34,527 nucleotides of DNA from a virus. Location of the stretch: positions 1 through 34,527 of the IMG/VR virus record IMGVR_UViG_3300033183_000245; one strand, given 5' to 3'. Each line of letters opens with the position of its first letter. The first letter of the stretch is position 1. The notes under the pieces were generated by a model. That model was not told where the DNA came from. It did not search any database and saw nothing but the letters and a program-made list of their open reading frames with translations. This document shows, piece by piece, positions 1-34,021 of this stretch. The position numbers were made by a program, and so were the translations under genes.

Positions 1-140
1 ATGTAAGCGAGCAGGTTGATTTGCAACCCTGTGGGGGCACGCATGTTGCCAAAACAGGTGAAATTGGCAGCGTCGCGATCAGCAAAATCGAGAAAAAGGG
101 CAAACAGAACAGACGTGTTCATCTCGTATTTCAGGATTGA
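1..140 (+). CDS. alaX: AlaX-type alanyl-tRNA editing protein, C-terminal fragment (host)
   Basis: The 5' part lies outside the window. Read in the frame whose codons start at base 3, the peptide carries QPCGGTHVAKTGEIG and later KIEKKGKQNRRVHL before the TGA at 138-140. The CGGTH box supplies zinc ligands in the second additional domain of alanyl-tRNA synthetases and in free-standing AlaX proteins, which hydrolyse mischarged Ser-tRNA(Ala) or Gly-tRNA(Ala) in the cytoplasm. The KGKQNRRV ending is typical of short AlaX proteins, so a stand-alone editor is more likely than AlaS. It is a host housekeeping gene and marks the chromosomal side of the prophage junction. Confidence 0.85.
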   Translation, partial: VSEQVDLQPCGGTHVAKTGEIGSVAISKIEKKGKQNRRVHLVFQD

Positions 141-201
141 TGCGGGAATTTCCCATTCACCCTTGATATTCCCAAAGCAATCGGTCAAAACCCCCTATAA
201 C

Positions 202-291
202 GGAGCGGTGGCCGAGTGGTCGAAGGCGCACGCCTGGAAAGTGTGTAGGCGGGAGACCGTCTCCAGGGTTCGAATCCCTGTCGCTCCGCCA
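202..291 (+). tRNA. tRNA-Ser(GGA), likely prophage attachment gene
   Basis: A 90-nt type II tRNA with encoded CCA. The acceptor stem GGAGCGG pairs with TCGCTCC (one G-U), the anticodon stem CACGC/GTGTG holds the loop CTGGAAA giving anticodon GGA, a long variable arm follows, and the T arm is CAGGG-TTCGAAT-CCCTG. It reads UCC/UCU serine codons. The gene is intact and phage DNA starts directly downstream, as expected when a tyrosine integrase uses the 3' half of a tRNA and restores it. No second copy of the tRNA 3' end was found in the window, so attR must lie outside it. Confidence 0.95.
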
Positions 292-346
292 TTATTTTCT
301 TATAAGTAACTGTATTTATTATATAAAAATCACCTTAAAGGCGGGT

Positions 347-370
347 GAGGTACATATTGAGGTACATATT
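347..370. repeat. Tandem 12-bp repeat next to attL, possible integrase arm sites
   Basis: Two perfect head-to-tail copies of GAGGTACATATT occupy 347-358 and 359-370, about 55 bp past the end of tRNA-Ser, in an AT-rich stretch (292-418) with no credible gene. Short direct repeats beside a tRNA attachment core are often arm-type binding sites for a tyrosine integrase or excisionase. The repeat is seen directly; the role is inferred. Confidence 0.5.
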
Positions 371-418
371 TATTTTTGTTGCACCAATGCCATACCGCAA
401 GAGTTTAATTTAGCTGAC

Positions 419-808
419 CTATGTATTGATCGAAGCGTTGATCTGCGTAATGAACTCATCGTTTATATAAAGTTCATACATTTTTGAGTTGGAAAGCAGC
501 TCCGCTCTGTCATCTTTCACTATTTTTAAAGTCTGCCCGTCTAGGTCGGCAGTAAATACACACTTCCAACTTGCGACCGCTGTCTTCTGACACGCTGGTT
601 CTTTGTAAAGGTTTTTCCAAGTGTGGTTAAAAACCTCTTTTCCGTTGGCACGTAAAATCGTGGTCAGCGTCATACCTTCCCACTGATCCTCTAATTCAAA
701 GACGTATTTTTTTTGATCGTATTGTCCTGCGGCTTTGAAAACAGGAGTGACCGTTCCACAGCTGGCTAACAATGCACTGGCAAAGATTGCTGAGATTATT
801 TTTTTCAT
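419..808 (-). CDS. Predicted outer/inner membrane lipoprotein (prophage cargo)
   Basis: 129 aa from the ATG at 808, which has GAGG nine bases upstream; an ATG at 823 is in frame but would delay the signal peptide. The N-terminus MKKIISAIFASALLASCGT is a type II signal peptide with lipobox LLAS-C, so the mature protein should start at a lipidated cysteine near residue 17. The rest is a soluble periplasmic domain with two further cysteines around the PACQ and WKC motifs. I do not recognise the family. It is transcribed toward the tRNA, the usual place for lysogenic-conversion genes, and phage lipoproteins there often block superinfection or DNA entry (inference). Confidence 0.7.
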   Translation of the reverse strand: MKKIISAIFASALLASCGTVTPVFKAAGQYDQKKYVFELEDQWEGMTLTTILRANGKEVFNHTWKNLYKEPACQKTAVASWKCVFTADLDGQTLKIVKDDRAELLSNSKMYELYINDEFITQINASINT

Positions 809-910
809 TTCAGTTCGCCTCATTTTTACGTCTCCTACCAAAATGTATATTGCCACCCCTTGAGACAATCCAAATGCTTTCTGTCTGTTTCAGTAATTTT
901 GGGTGAAAAC

Positions 911-1102
911 ATGACAGATAAAGTATGGCTTACCGACGTTGAAGTCGGCACAAGATTTGGCTCAACACGCCAGTGGGTTTGGTCACAAGCACGGACAAAC
1001 CCGAAGTTCCCACAACCTGTAAAGCTATCCACGCGCTGGTCGCGCTGGAGCCTGCAGGAGATCGAAGCATTTGAACAGGAGGCGATGTCAGCCCGTGGTT
1101 AG
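911..1102 (+). CDS. AlpA/MerR-like small DNA-binding protein
   Basis: 63 aa from the ATG at 911 (GGGTGA upstream); the frame stays open upstream but only this start has a ribosome site. The pattern WLTDVEVGTRFGSTRQWVWSQ followed by FPQPVKLSTRWSRWSLQEIEAF is the single helix-turn-helix plus wing of the AlpA/Xis-like group, in which a residue after the RW pair begins the last helix. Such proteins act as excisionases or as activators of early phage genes. Being first in the rightward early region and close to attL, either role fits; the sequence cannot decide. It overlaps the start of the next gene by 8 bp, suggesting translational coupling. Confidence 0.75.
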   Translation: MTDKVWLTDVEVGTRFGSTRQWVWSQARTNPKFPQPVKLSTRWSRWSLQEIEAFEQEAMSARG

Positions 1103-1535
1103 TGCATCACAGAGAGGCCGCAGCAATCAGCGTAAGGGCGGATACCATGAGCGCAAGAACGGCAAGCGGCTAGGGGAGCTGACTGGCCTGACGTTTGAGC
1201 GTAACTTGGATCAGCGCAGAGAAGCTGATCATCTGGGCGATTTGATCTGCACGGATGCGGATTTCCCATTTGTGATCGAAAACAAGTATCGCTCCAAAGG
1301 TAATGGCATTCCAGCGGGGGCGTGGGAGCAAGCCTGTAGAACCGCACACAAGACGCAGCAGTGGCCAAGCGTGGTCTATCAGAATGGCCGCGTTGCGCCG
1401 CGTTGTCGCGTCCCTCTGGCCGTCATAGGACGTGCGCAGGGTGGGCATGACCTAATCCCGTTTGGTACAGCTGACCTATCAATGGAAGACTATGCTGAAC
1501 TTGCACTTCAGCTAATGCGCAACAAAAGGTTTTGA
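1095..1535 (+). CDS. Putative PD-(D/E)XK endonuclease / resolvase-like protein
   Basis: 146 aa if translation begins at the GTG at 1095, preceded by AGGAGG at 1077-1082; a TTG at 1071 is in frame but would place the start inside that ribosome site. The N-terminus is basic (RGRSNQRKGGYHERKNGKRLGE). The centre has HLGDLICTDADFPFVIENKYR, matching the D...ExK core of the PD-(D/E)XK nuclease fold, with Asp in GDL and Glu-Asn-Lys as catalytic residues. Small phage proteins of this shape are often Holliday-junction resolvase-like or branch-cutting nucleases used in recombination and replication. Size and location in the early operon agree. The exact substrate is not evident. Confidence 0.65.
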   Translation: MVSASQRGRSNQRKGGYHERKNGKRLGELTGLTFERNLDQRREADHLGDLICTDADFPFVIENKYRSKGNGIPAGAWEQACRTAHKTQQWPSVVYQNGRVAPRCRVPLAVIGRAQGGHDLIPFGTADLSMEDYAELALQLMRNKRF

Positions 1536-1550
1536 CCAAGGAACCTCTAT

Positions 1551-1644
1551 AGAAGGAAATCACTTCTGTCCCCCTATCGAAGGACAGCTGACTAGGGGGC
1601 CGCCTCAGAAGGAATACCCTTATGCCCCCCTATCGAAGGACAGC
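1551..1644. repeat. Imperfect 38-bp direct repeat, period 56 bp
   Basis: The units are 1551-1588 and 1607-1644. Each begins AGAAGGAA and ends in the perfect 19-mer CCCCCTATCGAAGGACAGC (1570-1588 and 1626-1644), with a diverged middle. The CCCCCTA of the first unit can also pair with TAGGGGG at 1593-1599. Repeat and hairpins overlap, so the duplication may have built the structured RNA described for this interval. Confidence 0.75.
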
Positions 1645-1722
1645 GAAGTTATCCTTCACGGCGGTAGGTGTCCGTCCCTTTACATATCGGAACCACCGCC
1701 ACCCACAATCAGGATGCATGAG

Positions 1723-1746
1723 ACGCCCGTAAGGGCGTTTTTTTTT
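1723..1746 (+). terminator. Rho-independent terminator
   Basis: Perfect stem ACGCCC-GTAA-GGGCGT (1723-1738) followed by a run of T to 1746. It would end transcripts from the 911-1535 genes or from the small RNA upstream, isolating the next early operon. Confidence 0.85.
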
Positions 1747-1925
1747 GGCCTTTTGCCATCTGACTAATGGTCTGAAAACAAAGACTATTCATCATTTTTC
1801 TTACCAGCAGCTTACGGATCATAACGGTTTAATACTACACGCTAACCAATTGATTACGTTAGAGAATAGCTGCATCCAGTTTAGTCAGAATGCATCCACA
1901 ACCAAACGCAAGAAAGGAACTTGTT

Positions 1926-2090
1926 ATGGATGCGATTGAACAGGAAAAAGCGGCGCGTCCTGCAAAGATACAAGCGTATGTTGCGACGTCAAGCAAGCAA
2001 TACTTGGTAAAGCTAGCGGTCGCAAATTCCCGCAAAATATCTGCGCAATTGGATTTGATCCTAAAAGAGCATGAGCAGTCAAATGGCTGA
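1926..2090 (+). CDS. Small early protein, possible ribbon-helix-helix type
   Basis: 54 aa from the ATG at 1926, which has AAAGGAA seven bases before it; an in-frame ATG at 1890 has no ribosome site. The sequence MDAIEQEKAARPAKIQAYVATSSKQYLVKLAVANSRKISAQLDLILKEHEQ divides into a short strand-like segment and two helices, which is compatible with a CopG/Arc-like ribbon-helix-helix repressor, but no diagnostic motif is visible. It opens the operon that runs to 7703. The 180 bp before it (1747-1925) is AT-rich and holds CTAAC-N10-GTTAG around 1842-1861, a possible operator. Function is not recognised. Confidence 0.55.
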   Translation: MDAIEQEKAARPAKIQAYVATSSKQYLVKLAVANSRKISAQLDLILKEHEQSNG

Positions 2091-2253
2091 TCGTCTGGAA
2101 AAGGATGAACTCCTAGAGGTGGCGTTGAACGGCATCGAGCGTAAGGCCGATGTCATCCGCCTAATGGCCGCCACACCTCCGCAAAATCCACAAACCAAAC
2201 GCCTCGCGGGCGAGATTTTAACCCTCGTCGAGCAGGTCAAGAAATGGGTGTAA
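2071..2253 (+). CDS. Small hypothetical early protein
   Basis: 60 aa if the ATG at 2071 is used (AAAGAG just upstream), or 56 aa from 2083. It overlaps the end of the preceding gene by 20 bp and the start of the next by 10 bp, which supports its reality through operon packing. It is a helical, charged protein with no cysteines or membrane segment. I do not recognise a family; small helical early proteins of phages often modify host functions, but nothing here shows that. Confidence 0.5.
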   Translation: MSSQMADRLEKDELLEVALNGIERKADVIRLMAATPPQNPQTKRLAGEILTLVEQVKKWV

Positions 2254-2669
2254 CTATGTTTGATAGTTTTGAAAGTCGTGGCGTTTGCCACGCAGAAATT
2301 GATTATGCAAACCGTCTGGATGAATGGCTGACAGATTGGTTGCCACAAAACCTTCCTGTCATTGATGAGTTTCTGAAAATCACAAAGAAACTTCACGATG
2401 ACATGGGTCGTGAGCATTACGGCGCACAAGCAGTCTACGAAGTCATGCGCTTCCATCGTCTGCAGCGCGAAGGTGCTGGTGAGTTTAAGCTGAACAACAA
2501 CAATGTTGCGCTGATCGCACGTTACATCATGGCGAAACACCCACAATACGACGGGTTTTTCAGCCTCCGCACTATTAACGGCATCCCAGAAGTACGCGCC
2601 AAGCACATCTTTGAGGATGCCATGCGTCGCGCAGGTCAGCTTCCAGCTGCTCAAGCGGAGTTGTTCTAA
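2244..2669 (+). CDS. Hypothetical early protein
   Basis: 141 aa from the ATG at 2244; a second in-frame ATG at 2256 is possible. The product is predicted cytosolic and mostly helical, with a run of asparagines (FKLNNNNVALIARYIM) in its middle and an alanine-rich end. Its stop overlaps the next start in TAATG, so it is translationally coupled to the exonuclease gene and may serve the same recombination module. No enzymatic motif is visible and I do not recognise a family. Confidence 0.65.
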   Translation: MGVTMFDSFESRGVCHAEIDYANRLDEWLTDWLPQNLPVIDEFLKITKKLHDDMGREHYGAQAVYEVMRFHRLQREGAGEFKLNNNNVALIARYIMAKHPQYDGFFSLRTINGIPEVRAKHIFEDAMRRAGQLPAAQAELF

Positions 2670-32787: not shown

Positions 32788-32982
32788 ATGGACAAACGAA
32801 CAGTTGCATCTGCACACGAACGCATTGATGACATGCAAATTCAGGTCGCGGAGATCAGAACCGAAGTCAAAATCCAGTTCAAAGAAGTCTTTGCCCGCGT
32901 GAAACGCCTTGAGGCTATCATGATTGGTGCATCAGCTTCCATTATTGCCATGCTGGTGATGGTGCTGACACGGATGCCTTAA
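32788..32982 (+). CDS. XhlA-like small membrane protein, possible holin partner
   Basis: 64 aa. A charged helix (HERIDDMQIQVAEIRTEVKIQFKEVFARVKRLEA) followed by a single C-terminal membrane segment (IMIGASASIIAMLVMVLT) is the architecture of haemolysin XhlA-type lysis proteins. It follows the fibre genes, the usual place for lysis genes, but XhlA-like proteins also occur elsewhere in phages. The lysis role is inference. Confidence 0.55.
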   Translation: MDKRTVASAHERIDDMQIQVAEIRTEVKIQFKEVFARVKRLEAIMIGASASIIAMLVMVLTRMP

Positions 32983-33206
32983 AAGCCGCTTCCACCACCA
33001 ACATCGTTGGGCCAAGACTGTTTGCTTAGGTCAACGTTTTCTCTGTTTGATGACATCATTTTGGTTGTCACTAATATTGCGGTGAACGCTCCAAAGAACA
33101 TTGTTGCAATCAAATTGTTTGCGAACTTATCGCTATCGGCAAAGAGAGTTAGTACCCCGAAAACAAGAGTATTGCTGGCACCTAGAATTGTTAGTGTTTT
33201 GAGCAT
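32979..33206 (-). CDS. Small two-helix membrane protein (antiparallel)
   Basis: 75 aa from the ATG at 33206, with GGAG six bases upstream; a GTG at 33224 is in frame. Two hydrophobic helices (about residues 4-23 and 31-49: TILGASNTLVFGVLTLF and NLIATMFFGAFTAILVTT) and a short tail. It overlaps the XhlA-like gene by 4 bp and runs opposite to the lysis genes, so it is likely cargo. An antiholin or immunity role is possible; nothing shows it. Confidence 0.5.
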   Translation of the reverse strand: MLKTLTILGASNTLVFGVLTLFADSDKFANNLIATMFFGAFTAILVTTKMMSSNRENVDLSKQSWPNDVGGGSGF

Positions 33207-33273
33207 TGCGAACTCCAACTTCACACATCATAGCAAAATTTCGTCAAAAAATCAAAAATAGGTGTTTGAAAAC

Positions 33274-33390
33274 AAAAAAACCCCCGCGTCGTCGGAGGCT
33301 TTCTTGGAGCGTAGTGCCAACACAGGGAGGAGTGTTTTCTACGCTGGCAACACAATGATAAGGGAGGTTCGTGTTGCGTATGAAACTAAC
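33274..33390 (-). ncRNA. Candidate anti-Shine-Dalgarno small RNA (CcsR/cuckoo-like)
   Basis: Read on the minus strand, hairpin A (33377-33347) is GCAACAC/GTGTTGC with a loop containing CCTCCC, and hairpin B (33345-33308) is AGCGTAG/CTACGCT with inner AACAC/GTGTT and loop TCCTCCCT. Then comes a terminator (33299-33274): CCTCCG/CGCGGGG with one bulge and seven T. Two hairpins that both expose a C-rich anti-SD loop plus a terminator resemble the cuckoo/CcsR RNAs of Rhodobacter and other alphaproteobacteria, which carry CCUCCUCCC. The exact 5' end is not known; a weak TAAAAT at 33412-33407 lies upstream. Confidence 0.6.
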
Positions 33391-33393
33391 TTA

Positions 33394-33444
33394 GCTGCAC
33401 TGCAGCATTTTAGCTAGGTGCTATATTGCATACCCGTTATGCAA
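33394..33444. promoter_or_regulatory. Two palindromes between the candidate small RNA hairpins
   Basis: GCTGCA-C-TGCAGC (33394-33406) and TTGCATA-N5-TATGCAA (33426-33444) are perfect inverted repeats in the segment between the two hairpin sets. They could be operators for transcription leaving this locus in both directions. No factor can be named from the sequence. Confidence 0.5.
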
Positions 33445-33462
33445 ATTTCACATGGCTAAAAT

Positions 33463-33514
33463 AAAAAAACGGCTCAATCACAACCTCCTCCCAAAAGTCG
33501 TGAGAACCGTTTTT
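33463..33514 (+). ncRNA. Terminator hairpin with CCUCCUCCC loop (plus strand)
   Basis: AACGGCTC...CAC pairs with GTGAGAACCGTT with a loop containing CCTCCTCCC (33484-33492), flanked by A-runs and T-runs, so it can act as a terminator in either direction. On the plus strand it presents a perfect anti-SD loop and could be the 3' end of a second small RNA; on the minus strand the loop is SD-like (GGGAGGAGG) and complementary to the loops of the minus-strand RNA. Confidence 0.5.
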
Positions 33515-33577
33515 ACCCGTAAGGGGATGCGGGCCTTTTAAGCATATCTGCCAACATGTCAATCAATAGGTGACCCC

Positions 33578-34021
33578 ATGGACCCGCTAACAGCATTGGC
33601 GGCGATCAAGACAGGTGTGGCTGCAGGCAAGCAACTGCACAATTTGTCGAAAGAGATCGCTGGGTTTTTTGATGCCACCGATGGTGCAAAGAAAGCCCAC
33701 GCTAAAAAGAAGAACGGCATTTTTGCCAGCGCGAACGAAGAGGCCATGGCGACATGGACACAAGCGCAGAACGCAAAGACAGCCGAAGCTGAACTGCGGG
33801 AGTTTATCGTCAACACCAAAGGGTTCTCTGCCTATCAGGAGCTGCTGAAGATACGCCGTGAAGTCATTGCACAGCGTAAGGAAGCGGAGCGTCAGGCGCA
33901 GAAAGAGGCCGAAGAGCGTGCTGAAATGATAATGACCGTCTTTGCCGTACTGCTTCTTATTGTTGCTGCGGTCAGCGGAGCAGGGGCGTGGCTCTACTAC
34001 AAAGGATGGATTGATCTATGA
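33578..34021 (+). CDS. Membrane-anchored helical protein of the lysis region
   Basis: 147 aa, AGGTG before the ATG. The start DPLTALAAIKTGVAAGKQLHNLSKEIAGFFDATDGAKKA and later long helix (AYQELLKIRREVIAQRKEAERQAQKEAEERAEM) lead to a C-terminal membrane segment (IMTVFAVLLLIVAAVSGAGAWLYY). The coiled helix plus C-terminal anchor could be an inner-membrane spanin or a virion-associated protein. Related proteins, as I recall, occur next to holins in T7-like and marine phages. No endolysin follows. Confidence 0.55.
   Translation: MDPLTALAAIKTGVAAGKQLHNLSKEIAGFFDATDGAKKAHAKKKNGIFASANEEAMATWTQAQNAKTAEAELREFIVNTKGFSAYQELLKIRREVIAQRKEAERQAQKEAEERAEMIMTVFAVLLLIVAAVSGAGAWLYYKGWIDL

Follow-up and report, generated by a model that had tools for sequence, protein, structure and literature searches.

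An accessory prophage cassette with predicted anti-Shine-Dalgarno hairpins may let the virus tune host protein synthesis

A 34.5-kb virus record, analyzed here over its whole length (the window), contains a cassette whose minus strand probably encodes a genuine anti-Shine-Dalgarno (anti-SD) small RNA, as judged from its fold and conservation, and the cassette may let the virus tune host protein synthesis. The predicted RNA, RNA-II (33274..33380, minus strand, about 105 nt, with its 5' end placed by prediction), consists of hairpins H1 and H2 and a terminator. The minus strand from 33380 to 33270 (111 nt) folds at −44.2 kcal/mol (z = −6.1), and none of 200 shuffled sequences folded equally well. 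H1 (33347..33377, minus strand) has a 9-bp stem and a loop that shows ACCUCCCUU, with CCUCCC at 33362-33367. H2 (33308..33345, minus strand) has a stem of 7+5 bp and a loop that shows UCCUCCCU (inside CUCCUCCC at 33325-33332). Both loop motifs are unpaired in the computed ensemble with a probability of ~1. The intrinsic terminator GCCUCCGacgacgCGGGGGUUUUUUU (33274..33306, minus strand) has U7 after its stem, and two of its pairs are G-U pairs that become A-C mismatches if read on the plus strand; it is near invariant across relatives, with an altered loop in one of them (L249). When the whole window was dinucleotide-shuffled 300 times, two CCTCCC-in-loop hairpins at most 80 nt apart on one strand arose in 2 of the shuffles. 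The original prediction of two consecutive minus-strand hairpins with CCUCCC and UCCUCCC loops, followed by a terminator, is thus borne out by the fold and by its retention in relatives.

The two-hairpin arrangement is kept in seven other phage contigs, one of which (L043) is cut off by its contig end and could be seen for H2 only, leaving seven full cassettes including that of the window. Group A (the window, L045, L217, and L249) has a common stem pair, and group B (L046, L052, L054, and L043) has unrelated H1 and H2 stems. The loop core CCUCCC is kept in both hairpins across both groups, as far as the contigs extend, with the H2 core reduced to CCUCCC in L217 and L249. In group B, the differing letters of the H2 5' arm all keep pairing with the unchanged 3' arm on the minus strand, while several break pairing on the plus strand, where G-U pairs turn into A-C mismatches; this covariation comes from few independent events, given how close the members of a phage group are to one another. 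For H1 and H2 the comparison used hand-anchored arms instead of a covariance model, because MAFFT fails on the two groups' replaced stems.

The whole cassette (33257..33564, minus strand) is a 308-bp insertion between AATAGGTG direct repeats that is missing from sister phages. Two of these (L004 and L010) have an empty site, matching the window at 33010-33256 (96%) and 33565-33637 (97%) without exactly 33257-33564, and L009 likewise has no cassette, with flank identities of 90% and 96%. The protein encoded next to the locus on its right has relatives in 30 phage contigs, where the cassette is present in L003, L013, and L015 and absent from close kin. Pattern scans added the cassettes of L043, L052, L217, and L249, for a total of eight including the window. 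The cassette can thus be present or absent in otherwise near-identical phages. What adjoins it on the left takes three forms (a gene for a small membrane protein, a GGCGGTATACTTGG element, or the upstream gene's end with nothing in between), and the cassette is thus a discrete module. Our best reading of these alignments is that it is an accessory ("moron") module, oriented opposite to the late genes and probably mobile among phages. In INPHARED phages and PLSDB plasmids, searches with the cassette DNA yielded at most one chance match of 27 nt, and in 391 Rhodobacterales genomes a single weak match of 39 nt. No relatives of the neighboring protein were confirmed in bacterial genomes.

Several features of the surrounding DNA vary among these contigs. 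The membrane-protein gene (window 32979-33224, minus strand) encodes a small probable membrane protein of 81 aa, with a 79-aa relative in L217 and no match in Pfam or PHROGs, and is present or absent independently of the cassette. We dropped this downstream gene as a regulated target because five cassette contigs (L045, L046, L052, L054, and L249) have other left flanks. A short conserved element with inverted ends, GGCGGTATACTTGGACCACTTGTGGATACACTAGGACATC...CCGCCATCC, is found to the left of the cassette or of the neighboring gene (e.g. L045:3358-3383) in L003, L011-L015, L045, L046, L052, and L054, with and without the cassette, and is possibly another structured RNA or a repeat. In eight contigs (L004, L012, L043, L045, L046, L052, L054, and L217), head genes (terminase, portal, protease, or major head protein) are followed nearly at once by the equivalent of the window right end (~32.7-34.2 kb), without connector and tail genes and with several different breakpoints. 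These contigs recall capsid-forming satellites that borrow tails, and could be such elements, defective prophages, or assembly effects.

The window phage is a prophage of (marine) Rhodobacterales. Its left edge is marked by a flank of host chromosome (3..291, plus strand) that holds the C-terminal end of an editing protein, which we take to be AlaX-like, and a tRNA-Ser(GGA). This tRNA shares up to 100% identity with Rhodobacterales genomes, and an AlaX-like tail is encoded near the tRNA in six of eight such Rhodobacterales loci. The remainder of the window belongs to a tailed phage that has head genes of HK97 type (terminase, portal, prohead protease, and major head protein) and, on the tail side, a tape-measure protein and a tail fibre. 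It is this host flank together with the tailed-phage genes that leads to the prophage assignment. No integrase was identified among the scanned window proteins, and no tRNA fragment matching the left edge (window 1-2300) was noticed at the right end.

Upstream of RNA-II, the cassette encodes a second predicted RNA, RNA-I (33463..33532, minus strand, about 70 nt, both ends placed by prediction), made up of a small CCC/GGG hairpin, the right hairpin HR, and U7. RNA-I folds at −31.8 kcal/mol, with a z-score of −3.5 on the minus strand and −1.7 on the plus strand. HR (33469..33510, minus strand) is an 18-bp terminator-like hairpin with a GGGA loop followed by U7. Its apex contains the SD-like GGGAGGAGG (33484..33492, minus strand), of which GGGAGGA is invariant in the seven cassettes; the plus-strand reading, CCTCCTCCC, is the sole copy in the window. 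The window HR reaches −28.1 kcal/mol on the minus strand versus −15.7 on the plus strand. Over the seven phages, pairing holds in 122 of 122 cells on the minus strand versus 73.8% on the plus strand; both sides are altered in three pairs and one side in five more, all of which still pair on the minus strand. RNAalifold gave −70.2 kcal/mol for the minus strand (covariation term −4.9) versus −40.1 for the plus strand (−0.6). After HR a tract of U6-U7 is kept on the minus strand; on the plus strand the window has U5, four relatives have U4, and L217 and L249 have CUUU or CUGU. Because of the covariation and the U tract we assign HR to the minus strand, where, by these comparisons, it is a hairpin with GGGAGGAG at its apex, a Shine-Dalgarno look-alike.

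This assignment reverses the original prediction of a plus-strand terminator hairpin exposing CCUCCUCCC. A plus-strand RNA with such a loop is in our view highly improbable: the loop letters TCCTCCC are kept in seven of seven cassettes, and the window, L045, L217, and L249 have a CTATAT box at 33421, but the box is lost in L046, L052, and L054, 26% of the cells are unpaired on the plus strand, and neither L217 nor L249 keeps the plus-strand U tract. The 8-nt loop complementarity that had been pointed out is real, matching GGGAGGAG of the HR minus-strand apex to CUCCUCCC of H2, but with HR on the minus strand it becomes a possible contact of two RNAs that both come from the minus strand, instead of one across strands.

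HR also bears on what the hairpins are for. That they are mere transcription terminators or insulators between the late operon and its neighbors, with incidental C-rich loops, is unlikely, even though the RNA-II terminator and HR are good intrinsic terminators on the minus strand and cassettes between phage genes frequently act as insulators. Neither H1 nor H2 has a U tract, and both are still hairpins with the loop core kept where the stems have been replaced, so that an exclusively bidirectional terminator, the explanation originally set against an anti-SD locus, fails for these two. HR itself retains GGGAGGA, with wobble pairs that gain no stability thereby. We consider it very unlikely that HR is a regulatory leader, a fourU-like element hiding the SD of a short frame that starts inside the stem. 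In HR, GGAG is paired with UUUU, and 5 nt past GGGAGG the hairpin contains a start codon (GUG in the window, AUG in L217) that opens 14 codons (window 33485-33443, minus strand); however, this 14-codon frame of the window and L217 is shifted by a U6/U7 difference in L045, L046, L052, and L054, and it runs straight into the terminator.

The HR apex GGGAGGAGG is complementary to the H1 and H2 loops and to those of host cuckoo RNAs; its match to the host motif is exact over 9 nt in the window and spans 8 nt in L217 but 7 in L249. The computed duplex energy of the apex is −17.6 kcal/mol with the H2 loop and −19.9 kcal/mol with a host cuckoo loop, the strongest found. In free HR only GGGA is open and the remaining apex is paired. 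Co-folding of RNA-I with RNA-II brought no equilibrium gain over folding apart, and a sponge role therefore needs a kissing start or a chaperone. The roles could also be exchanged, with RNA-I as the main actor, an SD mimic that soaks up host cuckoo/CcsR/ar14-like RNAs (an anti-sRNA), and RNA-II as its modulator. The exact complement of the host CCUCCUCCC and its strong duplex fit this arrangement, as do the presence of such RNAs in host genomes and the precedent of phage anti-sRNAs such as AgvB against GcvB (PMC12197685). The closed apex of free HR and the shortened match in L217 and L249 speak against it, and we regard it as quite unlikely.

Three short sites may control the two RNAs. A promoter-like site, P1 (TTGACA-N16-TAAAAG; 33537..33562, minus strand), stands at the right edge of the cassette; its TTGACNTGTTNNNNGATATGNNTAAA is kept in all seven full cassettes, though the outer flank differs in L217 and L249, and it is the one site of its type in the window, where 0 are expected. 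Its conservation suggests a promoter function. The inverted repeat GCATACCCGTTATGC (33428..33442), a possible operator, is nearly unchanged in the seven cassettes and has its sole window site here. Just upstream of RNA-II, the palindrome GCTGCACTGCAGC (33394..33406), possibly an operator or part of a promoter, is kept in the seven cassettes with one change, in L045, and has its only perfect window copy here.

We infer leftward transcription of the cassette into structured non-coding RNAs, and with it promoter use, pairing in the cell, targets, a sponge role, a benefit to the phage, and the damping of translation. In RNA-II, the two stable hairpins would hold CCUCCC-type sequence single-stranded and free to pair with GGGAGG-type SDs. 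Such pairing would block ribosome loading on chosen mRNAs, most likely those of the host, as with CcsR and ar14/NfeR1. Phage genes were rejected as targets: none of the 38 examined in the window has GGGAGG in the 25 bases before its start, and host mRNAs are therefore the likely targets. Outside the cassette, GGGAGG occurs 2 times in the window against ~7.5 expected, a depletion that is weak at best. A rough survey of SDs at host start sites drew on just 27 usable genes from the loci, too few to be informative about targets. RNA-I would start from its own promoter-like site upstream and end in the terminator hairpin with the GGGAGGAG apex; by pairing with the loops of RNA-II and of host cuckoo RNAs it may be a sponge or a timing switch. 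Late plus-strand transcription, if it passes through the cassette, would be antisense to RNA-II.

That RNA-I and RNA-II form a regulator and its sponge is possible, although we hold it tentatively. We are equally hesitant about the wider proposal that a temperate phage uses an RNA-only pair, an anti-SD RNA and an SD-mimic sponge, to plug into the host cuckoo-RNA network and switch host translation between lysogeny and the lytic cycle, with late plus-strand antisense silencing the cassette. If true, phages would interfere with host translation without the use of proteins, by imitating a host RNA regulator or buffering it. The SD-mimic hairpin linked to the anti-SD RNA points to a built-in antagonist, and the presence and absence of the cassette in near-identical phages provide a clean natural experiment.

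Rhizobiales and Rhodobacterales have anti-SD small RNAs in abundance. Cuckoo/ar14 RNAs have identical anti-SD loops and highly different stems (PMC10746234, PMC3927594), and ar14/NfeR1 has been shown experimentally to silence its targets via these loops (PMC10746234). The cassette resembles the cuckoo/ar14 RNAs (RF02344; NfeR1 in Sinorhizobium meliloti) in its series of hairpins with anti-SD loops, its kept loops and varied stems, its Rho-independent terminator, and its alphaproteobacterial setting (PMC10746234, PMC3927594). It differs in that cuckoo RNAs have CCUCCUCCC in every hairpin, whereas the cassette loops hold 6 (H1, AACCUCCC) and 8 (H2, ACUCCUCCC) of the 9 motif letters and neither has the full CCUCCUCCC; further, its terminator hairpin is separate and without the motif, an SD-mimic hairpin precedes it, and it lies on a mobile phage cassette. 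The RNA family search suggested with the original prediction found no meaningful Rfam match in the window at gathering or relaxed thresholds, and none to RF02344 ar14 up to E 10, while the positive controls L063, L185, and L196 were matched. The ar14 model recognizes rhizobial RNAs and misses both the window and the three Rhodobacterales loci tested, L132, L133, and L078, whose two-hairpin CCUCCUCCC RNAs matched no Rfam family. We built a model, R1, from 36 Rhodobacterales two-hairpin cuckoo RNAs; it scored the window at 9.6 bits (E 0.8) and the other cassettes at 8.6-13.8 bits, compared with 70 bits for L132 (a training member), 53 bits for L195, and 39-44 bits for ar14 RNAs. An R1-like covariance model would fill the Rfam gap for Rhodobacterales two-hairpin RNAs.

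When 84,980 species were scanned for a pair of CCTCCTCCC loops with a T run behind them, most of the matches came from Rhizobiales and Rhodobacterales. Two-hairpin CCUCCUCCC RNAs occur in 94 of 381 Rhodobacterales genomes, with 0 control matches. The host order is rich in two-loop CCUCCUCCC RNAs, and the motif therefore has a working precedent there. With these RNAs and with CcsR1-4 of Rhodobacter sphaeroides the cassette shares the host order and the anti-SD loop principle. CcsR RNAs arise by processing of the 3' UTR of the DUF1127 gene ccaF1 and have an RpoHI/RpoHII promoter (PMC10253847, PMC8625941), whereas the cassette promoter-like site is of the TTGACA type; DUF1127 (PF06568, CcaF1) is absent from the window. 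In the host two-hairpin form, unlike the cassette, the second loop is inside the terminator itself. The proposed likeness to CcsR/cuckoo RNAs on a prophage thus holds for the CCUCCC-type loops, kept as stems are replaced, the cassette's own terminator, and a host order rich in such RNAs, but does not establish family membership. On our best reading the cassette RNA would work like a cuckoo RNA and is not demonstrably a member of the family by descent.

Related RNAs were observed in other viral contigs. In a 5-kb contig, a full two-loop CCUCCUCCC RNA (L195:4629-4717, minus strand) lies beside phage head genes and a tRNA; it may mark a prophage edge, or be a second phage-borne cuckoo RNA that is independent of the cassette. 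In L196 (10617-10741 and 10962-11107), an ar14 RNA at the edge of a prophage with a phage-type RNA polymerase gene was rejected as phage cargo and is probably host DNA because a DUF1127-like gene and a tRNA adjoin it there. Three-hairpin ar14-type RNAs also occur inside several IMG/VR contigs of up to 75 kb (L177-L178, L180, L183-L187, L189-L191, L193-L194, L199, L201-L202, and L204-L208; L185 was confirmed by Rfam), and are either true cargo of prophages or host DNA in contigs wrongly called proviruses.

In the literature searched we found no phage-borne anti-SD small RNA. The Caulobacter SisA-D RNAs are anti-SD small RNAs with a complementary sponge, CrfA (PMC12559287), a pairing to which we liken the cassette RNAs by description; SisA-D are chromosomal and Hfq-dependent and not phage-borne. 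AgvB, from prophage Sp5 of enterohaemorrhagic E. coli, is a phage RNA that imitates mRNA targets and soaks up GcvB (PMC12197685). AgvB and the cassette are both prophage-borne, but AgvB acts in another host class, has GcvB as its target, and has no anti-SD RNA partner, whereas the cassette would pair its SD mimic with an anti-SD RNA of its own.
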